From: Haloarcula limicola
Lineage (GTDB): Archaea > Halobacteriota > Halobacteria > Halobacteriales > Haloarculaceae
Reading direction: 5' to 3'
DNA length: 64,000 nt
Assembly: GCF_010119205.1 (NCBI RefSeq)
Contig: NZ_WRXM01000001.1
Coordinates: 434,001 to 498,000, forward strand
Shown here: piece by piece, positions 32,629-35,858 of the stretch
How the letters are laid out: the number at the start of each line of letters is the position of its first letter
Position numbering within the stretch: the stretch's first letter is position 1
Made by a program: the position numbers and the translations under genes
Notes under the pieces: model-generated
Told to the model about the DNA's origin: nothing
Database searches by the model: none
Seen by the model: the letters and a program-made list of their open reading frames with translations, nothing else

Positions 32629-33218
32629 TCTCGTTCGCCGGAGGACCGTCGAACGAAGTTCCGGTCGCTCGGCCGTCCACTCCCTTCGAACGGCGTCTAC
32701 GGGATACTGCTCTCGAAGGCATCTCTGAAAGAGGTTCGGCCCTCGCGAACAAGTATTGGTACCAGGGAACATGGATTCGACACTGCTCCCGGGGTTCATC
32801 GCGTTCGGAGTGACGGGCCGTCCAGCGGATTACAGCGAAGCGCACGCCCCGGATAGACCGCTGAGACGGTCGTCGCCGCGTTCGAGTCTGCCGAACAGCC
32901 GTCGCGACGCGACGGAGAGCGGGGTCGGACCGTCTCCGTATCGTTCTGAGACCGACGTTGATCGGACACTCGATTGGATGCGGCGAAGAGTAACACTATC
33001 GATGAGGGTACCGATTGCCAGCCGCCCCTGCTCGCCGAACCGGTAGCGTCCCGGGTCGAGCGCCAGAATAATAATGTACGTACTTTTGTTATTTAGTTGC
33101 GATCGAAAACGACGCTATGTTCGTTGTGGGGTTGCTCTCAGTGGCGAATCCCGTTGAGACAGCCAATGATGCGTAGGATGTAAGAAGATTTATTACACTA
33201 CAGAGTCTTGCCATCGAT
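32629..33218. other. Intergenic stretch, right border of the catabolic island
   Basis: In these 590 bp I find no gene. The right end has an AT-rich block with the palindrome GTACGTAC near 33076 and the promoter of the SMC-like gene (TTTATTAC, 33189-33196). Base composition is mixed, lower in G+C toward the right. Confidence 0.6.
33189..33196 (+). promoter_or_regulatory. Predicted TATA box of the SMC-like/rdfA operon
   Basis: TTTATTAC lies 23-30 bp before the ATG at 33219, the standard archaeal spacing for a transcript beginning at the start codon. Confidence 0.55.
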
Positions 33219-35186
33219 ATGTCTACATCAGAGGAACTCGCAGAAAATGCCAGATTTGCCGTCGAGAATATCGGTGGCATCGACGAGGCCGAACTCTCCG
33301 TCTCGAGCGGTGTGACGGTCCTCTCGGGGAAGAACGCCACCAACAGGACGTCCTTCCTGCAGTCGATCATGGCCGCGATGGGGAGCCGCCAGGCGACGCT
33401 CAAGGGCGACGCGGACGAGGGGAGCGTCGAGATGGAGTTCCGGGGCGAGACGTATAAGCGAACGCTCACTCGGGCCGGCGACAGCCTCCAGTTCTCGGGC
33501 GAGGGCTACCTCGACGACTCCGACGTCGCGGACCTGTTCGCGTTCCTCTTAGAGACCAACGAAGCGCGCCAGTCGGTCGCCCGCAGCGACGACCTCCGGG
33601 ACATGATCATGCGCCCGGTCGACACCGAGGCGATCAAACGCGAGATCGAGGAGCTAGAGGAGGAGAAAGGCGAGATAAACGAGGAACTGGCCACCATCGA
33701 GTCCCGACAGCGCGACCTCCCCGACCTCGAACAGCGCCGGAACTCCCTGCGCGAACAGATCGAGGAGAAGCGCGAGGAACTCGCCGCAAAGGAAGAGGAG
33801 ATCGACGAGAGCAGTCGGGACGTTCAGGAGAGTCGACGGGAACAGGAGAAGCTCGAAGAGAAGCTCGACGAACTCCGTTCGACCCGGTCGGACCTCGAAT
33901 CGCTGCGGCAGCAGATAGAGTCTCAGGAAGCGAGCGTCACCTCGCTCAACCAGGAACAGAGCGAGCTCGAAGACGAGTTCGAGGACCTCCCGGACGCGCC
34001 GATGGGCGATAAGGACCACCTCGAGAGCGAGATCGACCGGCTCCGGGAGCGACGGCAGGAACTCAACAGCGACATCTCGGATCTGCAGAGCCTCATCCAG
34101 TACAACGAGGAGCGGATCGAGTCGGGCGACTACGACGTCCTCGATACCCTCGAAGGCGACGGCGGCGAAACCGCGGACGGCGGTGCCCTGACCGAGCAGC
34201 TGCTCGACGACGGTGACGAGGACCAGGTCGTCTGCTGGACGTGTGGCTCCACCGTCGAGCAGGAACAGATCGAGTCGACCATCGACCGCCTGCAGGACCT
34301 CAGAGAGGAGAAGCTCTCGGAGCTCTCGTCGGTGAAAGACGACCTCGAAGAGCTGAAGAGTGACCAGCGCGAGGCCGAGCAGAAACAGCAGCGACGCGAG
34401 CAACTCCAGCGGAAGATCGACGACATCGAGGACGAACTCGATCAGCGCACCGAGCAGATCGATTCGCTGAAAGAGCAGCGAGACGAGCAGAAGTCCGAAG
34501 TCGAAGACCTGGAGACGGCCGTCGAGGACCTCGAATCCGAGGACTTCGAGGACATCCTCACGCTCCACAAGGAGGCCAACCAGCTCGAGTTCGAGATCGA
34601 CAGCCTCGAATCCGACCTGGACGACGTCAGCGAGGAGATCGAGGAGATCGAGGGTCGGGTCGACGACGCCGACGACCTGCGCGAGGAGCGCGACGCCCTC
34701 ATGGACGAACTCACCGACAAGCGGACGAAGGTCGGACAGATCGAGGAAGACGCCGTCGAGGCGTTCAACGAACACATGGAGGCCGTCCTCGATATCCTCG
34801 GCTACGAGAACCTCGAACGGGTCTGGATCGAACGGCTCGAACGGACGGTTCGAGAGGGCCGTCGGAAGGTCGAGAAGAGCGCCTTCGAGCTTCACATCGT
34901 CAGAAGCACCGAGAACGGCGCGGCCTACGAGGACACGGTCGACCACCTCAGCGAGAGCGAGCGCGAGGTCGTCGGCCTCATCTTCGCGCTGGCGGGCTAC
35001 CTCGTCCACGACCTCCACGAGACGGTGCCGTTCATGCTGCTGGACTCGCTCGAAGCGATCGACTCGGACCGCATCGCCGCGCTGGTCGATTACTTCGCCG
35101 ACTACGCCGACTTCCTCGTCATCGCGCTCCTCGAAGAGGACGCGCAGGCGCTCGACAGCGACTACGAGCGCGTCACCACCATCTGA
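33219..35186 (+). CDS. Archaea-specific SMC-related protein (Sph type), degenerate ATPase motifs
   Basis: This 655-residue Rad50/SMC-like protein has N- and C-terminal globular parts joined by about 430 residues of coiled coil with a zinc-hook-like CWTCGS at about residues 338-343. The P-loop reads SGKNATNRTS (about 36-45), so Arg replaces the usual Lys. The ABC signature is LSESER (about 576). The Walker B strand reads PFMLLDSLEAID, with Ser in place of the catalytic Glu. It may bind but probably does not hydrolyse ATP efficiently. It is followed 45 bp later by rdfA; as I recall, a similar pair in Haloferax volcanii affects rod versus disk cell shape. Confidence 0.85.
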   Translation: MSTSEELAENARFAVENIGGIDEAELSVSSGVTVLSGKNATNRTSFLQSIMAAMGSRQATLKGDADEGSVEMEFRGETYKRTLTRAGDSLQFSGEGYLDDSDVADLFAFLLETNEARQSVARSDDLRDMIMRPVDTEAIKREIEELEEEKGEINEELATIESRQRDLPDLEQRRNSLREQIEEKREELAAKEEEIDESSRDVQESRREQEKLEEKLDELRSTRSDLESLRQQIESQEASVTSLNQEQSELEDEFEDLPDAPMGDKDHLESEIDRLRERRQELNSDISDLQSLIQYNEERIESGDYDVLDTLEGDGGETADGGALTEQLLDDGDEDQVVCWTCGSTVEQEQIESTIDRLQDLREEKLSELSSVKDDLEELKSDQREAEQKQQRREQLQRKIDDIEDELDQRTEQIDSLKEQRDEQKSEVEDLETAVEDLESEDFEDILTLHKEANQLEFEIDSLESDLDDVSEEIEEIEGRVDDADDLREERDALMDELTDKRTKVGQIEEDAVEAFNEHMEAVLDILGYENLERVWIERLERTVREGRRKVEKSAFELHIVRSTENGAAYEDTVDHLSESEREVVGLIFALAGYLVHDLHETVPFMLLDSLEAIDSDRIAALVDYFADYADFLVIALLEEDAQALDSDYERVTTI

Positions 35187-35231
35187 GCACAGCAGCCTTT
35201 TTAAGTGCCAGTTGCGAAGGGAAGGTAAGAG

Positions 35232-35858
35232 ATGTCAGAGACGACCGACGACCGGCCGCCGAGCAAAGTCGCGCGACTCATCGACGAGTACGAACTCGAC
35301 GGGCTCGGGGCGGACCTGGAGACGCGATGGACGGGCGAGGGCGTCGAGCGGATGAGCCTCCGCGACCTCGCCGACTACTTCAACAAGCAGCTGCTGGAAC
35401 AGGCGCTTCGAGACGCGGGGATGAGCACGCTCGATACGGACGTCGACAGCACCTACGTCAACCTCACGGACGACGAGGTGAGCACCGGCGTCCGGACCGA
35501 CACGCGGAACCGCCTCGAACAGAACGGCGTGGACGTGGACGCGGTGGAGACGGACTTCGTCACGTATCAGGCGATCCGCTCGTACCTCAAGGAGTGGCGC
35601 GGCGCGGAGTACGACCACCCCTCCGACGAGGAGAAGCGAGCGAACGACCGCGAGAGCATCCAGCGGCTGCTCACCCGGACGCTCTCGGTGACCGAGGACC
35701 GCATCGAGAAACTGCGTGACACGGAGCGGATCGCCGTCGAGGACTTCGAGGTGTTCGTGGAGGCACAGGTGCTCTGCCAGCGCTGCGGGACCCAGTACTC
35801 CGCGACGGAGTTCATCGAGAACGGCGGCTGTGACTGCCTGCTCGACGACGCCGAGTGA
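35232..35858 (+). CDS. rdfA: Rod-determining factor RdfA-like protein
   Basis: This 208-residue protein has an N-terminal part (SKVARLIDEYELDGLGADLE) ending in a conserved RMSLRDLADYFNKQLLEQAL, a helical middle, and a zinc-ribbon-like C-terminus (CQRCGT, then CDC). A Shine-Dalgarno (GGAAGGT) precedes the ATG, which lies 45 bp after the SMC-like gene. The call rests on family resemblance and on pairing with the SMC-like gene; RdfA is described as needed for rod-shaped cells in Haloferax volcanii. The middle may be a partner-binding helix set for the SMC-like protein. Name moderately sure, operon sure. Confidence 0.75.
   Translation: MSETTDDRPPSKVARLIDEYELDGLGADLETRWTGEGVERMSLRDLADYFNKQLLEQALRDAGMSTLDTDVDSTYVNLTDDEVSTGVRTDTRNRLEQNGVDVDAVETDFVTYQAIRSYLKEWRGAEYDHPSDEEKRANDRESIQRLLTRTLSVTEDRIEKLRDTERIAVEDFEVFVEAQVLCQRCGTQYSATEFIENGGCDCLLDDAE

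Follow-up and report, generated by a model that had tools for sequence, protein, structure and literature searches.

The stretch of Haloarcula limicola DNA analyzed here (64,000 nucleotides, hereafter the window) contains two forward-strand open reading frames (ORFs) of 655 and 208 amino acids, separated by 45 bp. The product of the first matches the NCBIfam profile NF045487 (ASRP, archaea-specific SMC-related protein) at 672.5 bits (cut-off 300; profile positions 1-593 of 593), and that of the second matches the Pfam family PF21811 (RdfA, rod-determining factor A) at 262 bits (cut-off 27). Both ORFs lie where the original prediction had placed them, and the two profiles bear out its assignment of an SMC-like protein next to RdfA. 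The window belongs to a chromosome-sized contig, and its pair is a chromosomal representative of the haloarchaeal Sph-RdfA module, in itself an ordinary member of the haloarchaeal ASRP-RdfA set. A possible TATA box upstream of the Sph gene would suit a leaderless transcript. The features are listed below, with conservation in Sph counted over 87 aligned rows of the main haloarchaeal clade, one of which is a contaminating canonical SMC fragment.

33189..33195, + strand: possible archaeal TATA box TTTATTA, about 24-30 nt 5′ of the ATG, proposed from sequence only
33219..35186, + strand: Sph/ASRP gene, encoding a zinc-hook SMC-like protein with an AlphaFold head model
33327..33353, + strand: degenerate Walker A GKNATNRTS, residues 37-45, with N42 for Gly (83/87 rows) and R43 for Lys (84/87)
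34233..34244, + strand: zinc-hook CWTC (C339, C342), both Cys kept in 86/86 aligned rows
34947..34961, + strand: ABC signature LSESE, residues 577-581, with Ser578 and Glu581 invariant
35031..35054, + strand: degenerate Walker B around LLDSLE, with D609 kept (87/87) and S610 for the catalytic Glu (83/87)
35232..35858, + strand: rdfA gene
35775..35831, + strand: putative zinc-binding motif CxxC...CDC of RdfA, residues 182-200, with C182, C185 and C200 near-invariant in 23 RdfA proteins, some of them from methanogens

In the window genome, ASRP is present in three copies and RdfA in two, alongside ASRP remnants. The second ASRP (G000:C6:13250-15115, L082) is, in a tree of the heads, the paralogue closest to the window gene, and no RdfA lies within roughly 3 kb of it. 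Two short ASRP fragments at different positions (G000:C3:151829-152257, L105) apparently represent a gene remnant. Haloarchaeal plasmids often carry ASRP genes (116 plasmid records matched), and the nearest named plasmid matches to the window Sph are mostly from Haloarcula, at 64-67% identity. One plasmid ASRP (CP002989.1) is labelled "Kinetochore-Ndc80 complex, subunit Spc25", probably a misannotation of its coiled coil. No relative of the window query was found among the viral contigs searched. Membership in a defense system (Lamassu LmuB, Wadjet JetC) was not supported, the best PADLOC score being 52 bits and mostly due to coiled coil, with no PADLOC match for RdfA.

Examined as a candidate active SMC/Rad50 ATPase, the window Sph has the head fold and lacks the Walker A Lys, the Walker B Glu and the H-loop His. 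The first two departures had been predicted, as Arg for Lys in the P-loop (NATNRTS) and Ser for Glu in Walker B (LLDSLEAID), and both were confirmed, as Arg43 (codon AGG, 33345-33347) and Ser610. Asn42 in place of Gly, the LSESE signature and Leu638, the residue aligned at the H-loop, are departures beyond that prediction. The coiled coil and hook cysteines are retained as had been proposed: the AlphaFold model of Sph (mean pLDDT 87) comprises a Rad50/SMC head, a two-part coiled coil and a hook, and its head aligns with Rad50/SMC heads at VIA-align Z scores of 20-22. Normal GSGKS, LSGGE and DE motifs are present in the genome's canonical SMC and Rad50, which speaks against a fault in the aligner or the genome, and sequence error as the cause of the altered motifs was ruled out by the presence of identical residues in independent genomes. 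Judging from its sequence, Sph is likely hydrolysis-dead.

ASRPs and their neighboring genes were collected from sets of genomes sampled at the level of class and phylum; L061-L063 were left out as Rad50-like. Not one of 97 distinct haloarchaeal ASRPs has Lys and Glu together; their Walker A/Walker B residue pairs are Arg/Ser in 83, Lys/Gly in eight, Lys/Ala in three and Lys/Arg in three. Two clades can be distinguished, the main Sph clade (NATNRTS, Asp-Ser) and a second one (NWQGKSS, LSEGE, Asp-Gly or Asp-Arg), and three divergent main-clade proteins carry Lys (NASNK[TS]) but have Ala for Glu. In a tree from which the three trait columns had been withheld, and in which some outgroup branches are long and deep placement is rough, haloarchaeal ASRPs form a single clade (100/99) that contains the main clade (99/94), and their sister group consists of Methanosarcinia ASRPs (98/89), every one with Lys and Glu. 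By parsimony, Glu was lost at or close to the haloarchaeal stem, and the Lys-to-Arg change belongs to the main clade. An apparent G/R/E "intermediate" in the alignment (L002) was discarded as a canonical SMC fragment. The ASRPs of one Methanosarcinia family (f40; L196, L197, L199, L203) have the Walker A Lys and Asp-Asp at Walker B, and are preceded by another conserved gene of about 200 amino acids ("SSDITSTTIEDHT...") in the place of RdfA.

The site in Sph is tightly conserved in its altered form. Asn39 and Ala40 join Asp609, Ser578 and Glu581 as invariant residues of the main-clade alignment, 86/87 rows have Thr or Ser at position 44, Glu612, two positions past Ser610, is kept in 86/87, the D-loop Asp615 is at or near invariance, and positions flanking the dead ATPase site rank among the best conserved in the protein. 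Measured against the nearest relative, dN/dS is 0.049 for Sph and 0.043 for RdfA. Conservation together with strong selection indicates that the site is kept up in altered form. It had been allowed that intact motifs in related proteins would mark the window copy as simply defective; intact relatives do exist, yet clade-wide substitutions under strong purifying selection contradict this and show that the window Sph is not a broken copy. Remnants of another ASRP in the same genome (C3:151829-152257) and the apparent frameshift in one strain's orthologue (L167 vs L171) give the idea of a decaying copy some precedent, but the window frame is open and full length, and with conservation, dN/dS and the distribution of the substitutions all against it, decay is hardly credible and was ruled out. 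In L167 the P-loop and hook lie in different frames, whereas its same-genus orthologue L171 is open, a difference due to either a frameshift or an assembly error.

We next turn to RdfA. Its model (pLDDT 93.7) consists largely of helices, one of them 32 residues long (132-163), and carries a cluster of Cys at the C terminus. A structure search with this model returned no PDB match to the fold above noise, and a faint resemblance to a sigma-factor helix-turn-helix, spanning some 45 residues at Z 3.3-3.8, was judged not credible. Of 70 haloarchaeal ASRP genes, 62 have RdfA no more than 1.5 kb away, upstream or downstream and on either strand (four orientations), and adjacency had been published for 42/50 SMC-like genes (PMC10869688). 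A comparison of lists for 292 Halobacteria genomes found both families in 254, RdfA only in four, neither in 34 and ASRP only in none. The RdfA genes without a detected ASRP are L151-L154 (G285, G111, G072, G165), with two tandem copies in G072. The distance matrices of adjacent Sph/RdfA pairs correlate at r = 0.93; when partners are swapped among same-genome paralogues, the correlation drops to a mean of 0.43 (maximum 0.76), and none of 1000 such shuffles reaches the observed value. Sph and RdfA thus show cognate co-inheritance, as expected of a complex and equally of linked genes.

The partnership extends beyond haloarchaea. An RdfA-like gene adjoins ASRP in all examined Methanosarcinaceae ASRP loci of this type, for example in Methanosalsum natronophilum and Methanosarcina UBA10923, and also in Methanoperedens. 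Pfam's model detected the gene in three genomes (1e-8 to 1e-4), and searches with iterated profiles recovered it in the others. No recognizable RdfA was found beside L055 (the second ASRP in one of these genomes), the other Halobacteriota ASRPs or the f40 ASRPs. RdfA-paired ASRPs of Methanosarcinaceae and Methanoperedens keep GK[TS] and DE, so the family-wide change that the original prediction had proposed to look for is clade-wide in haloarchaea and does not extend to all archaea. Since relatives with intact Lys and Glu also adjoin an RdfA-like gene, pairing with RdfA predates the ATPase loss: the Sph-RdfA pair is older than haloarchaea, and the loss is younger than the pair.

Seven Methanosarcinaceae/Methanoperedens loci contain, beside ASRP-RdfA, a third gene, whose product has some 160-200 amino acids and apparently two winged-helix domains:

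L051, 5656-6141: apparent tandem winged-helix gene
L052, 1922-2443: apparent tandem winged-helix gene
L054, 1623-2147: apparent tandem winged-helix gene
L119, 5532-6101: apparent tandem winged-helix gene
L120, 5530-6081: apparent tandem winged-helix gene
L121, 2777-3307: apparent tandem winged-helix gene
L123, 4914-5510: apparent tandem winged-helix gene

ScpB is not among the Pfam matches listed for this gene, and a profile search of the examined haloarchaeal flanks (about 3 kb) found no homologue. The layout of the three genes is suggestive of SMC-kleisin-KITE operons. A speculative scenario, which we regard as doubtful, is that an ancestral three-subunit ATPase of ASRP, RdfA and the tandem winged-helix protein, arranged in the manner of SMC-kleisin-KITE, remained intact in Methanosarcinaceae and lost its ATPase and third subunit toward haloarchaea, leaving a hydrolysis-dead cell-shape clamp. 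If true, an SMC-type motor became a cytoskeletal or signaling scaffold.

Having established which residues are lost and which are kept, we considered how Sph might work. Our preferred reading, which we hold with about even confidence, is a hydrolysis-dead SMC/Rad50-type clamp in which bound nucleotide or RdfA determines the state. Sph would presumably dimerize through its zinc hook. Haloarchaeal Sph has other residues in place of the P-loop Lys and the catalytic Glu, on which ATP cleavage depends, while it retains Thr44 and Asp609, the expected contacts for Mg and nucleotide, as well as Ser578, Glu581 and the D-loop Asp615, through which the heads would be joined. Sph would thus probably bind ATP, or another nucleotide, without hydrolyzing it. 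The heads would then remain engaged, or be switched by RdfA and turnover, and a putative Sph-RdfA complex would form a static clamp or scaffold of the kind required for rods in the Haloferax homologue. ATP binding, the lack of hydrolysis, a physical Sph-RdfA complex and the locking mechanism are all steps that we infer. Three precedents, together with the pattern of lost and kept residues, favor this reading: Walker A Lys-to-Arg mutants are "often, but not always" ATP-binding yet non-hydrolyzing (PMC6254361), the natural SMC-like protein SMCL-1, without the catalytic Glu, is predicted to be ATP-binding and non-hydrolyzing or inactive (PMC5373644), and MRN in the ATP-bound state signals without hydrolysis (PMC3642328). 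The loss of ATP-burning residues in all sampled haloarchaeal relatives and their retention in methanogens suggest that Sph probably serves as a lock or scaffold and not as a motor. The scaffold proposed in the original prediction hence fits clade-wide substitutions under purifying selection, with the mechanism itself, the suggested nucleotide sensing included, a matter of inference.

Several points count against the clamp. The Gly-to-Asn change alongside Lys-to-Arg in the P-loop may abolish nucleotide binding altogether, and in Msh2 Lys-to-Arg impaired ATP binding (PMC6254361). A static scaffold leaves the gene-conversion defect of all four sph deletions unexplained (PMC11276520), and Lys is back in the three main-clade copies described above, though with Ala for Glu. 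Somewhat less probable than the clamp, and on balance unlikely, is a head that is a relic fold, with nucleotide binding lost and Sph acting through its coiled coil, much like an intermediate-filament protein, for which RdfA would be the adaptor. Such a relic would account for the two P-loop changes, Glu-to-Ser and the H-loop without His, and a cytoskeletal role has been proposed for Sph3 (PMC10869688); near-invariant Asp609, Thr/Ser44, Ser578/Glu581 and Asp615 would, however, be needless at a site free of ligand and interface. We consider it quite improbable that Sph is instead a slow but active ATPase with an unconventional site, in which Arg43 stands in for Lys and the base is a different acidic residue, for example Glu612. 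Catalytic residues of P-loop proteins are able to relocate, and the near-complete retention of Glu612 in the main clade is in keeping with this, but at the aligned site Gly or Ser is found in the second haloarchaeal clade, and SMCL-1 is a case in which a natural SMC-like protein without the catalytic Glu is predicted inactive (PMC5373644). The hydrolysis-dead clamp therefore remains preferred over both.

In Haloferax volcanii, deletion of sph3 or rdfA abolishes rods and both genes are required for normal motility (PMC10869688); for RdfA, the requirement in rod formation is known for HVO_2174 only (PMC10869688). Cells without sph2 are mostly rods, a double deletion of sph2 and sph4 cannot be obtained, and loss of any one of the four sph genes lowers survival in a gene-conversion assay (PMC11276520). 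The last finding argues that the Sph module is not solely about shape. The predicted link to cell shape is accordingly supported by the published sph3 and rdfA deletions (PMC10869688, PMC11276520), and shape may be neither the only nor the original role of Sph-RdfA. Another study has Sph3 promoting plates or disks (PMC13286277), in conflict with the loss of rods upon sph3 deletion (PMC10869688, PMC11276520). Archaellin was found in 35/38 genomes without ASRP vs 197/254 with it, opposite to a positive link (Fisher p = 0.05, kinship ignored). With no enrichment in genomes that have the pair, archaellin lends no support to a general motile-rod role.

Both families, their adjacency and the Haloferax rod phenotype have been published. 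In the open full-text literature searched, we found no biochemical work on any Sph, and neither the clade-wide loss of ATPase residues in haloarchaeal Sph nor the ATPase-intact methanogen ASRP-RdfA pair with a third winged-helix gene. In the usual account of SMC function, ATP drives head engagement and release. An SMC-like clade that has the architecture, the hook and the nucleotide contacts but no hydrolysis residues, and is needed for shape, would represent a natural separation-of-function experiment, and the loci of methanogens, in which the same partner accompanies an intact ATPase, provide an ancestral comparison by which the effect of RdfA on an SMC head becomes testable.

Among known systems, the closest is Sph3-RdfA of H. 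volcanii (HVO_2175-HVO_2174; PMC10869688), in which the same two families are adjacent; the window pair is its homologue, although the Sph counterpart may be Sph3 or Sph1/2/4, and the accessible portion of that publication does not discuss ATPase motifs. With the ASRP family, which includes Sulfolobus coalescin ClsN and haloarchaeal Sph (PMC9389158), the window Sph shares the profile, zinc hook, coiled coil and head; Walker A and B were reported as present in ASRPs (PMC9389158), whereas we find haloarchaeal members without the catalytic Lys and/or Glu. With Rad50/SMC ATPases (Rad50-Mre11, SMC-kleisin-KITE), Sph shares the head fold (Z about 22) and a Rad50-like zinc hook. Unlike them, it is half the length of SMC, has lost key hydrolysis residues and has no Mre11-like neighbor, and RdfA matches no known fold. 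Like Sph, Caenorhabditis elegans SMCL-1 (PMC5373644) is a natural SMC-like protein without the catalytic Glu, but SMCL-1 keeps Walker A, has no hinge or coils and binds condensin SMCs, whereas Sph keeps its coil and hook and has a partner of its own.
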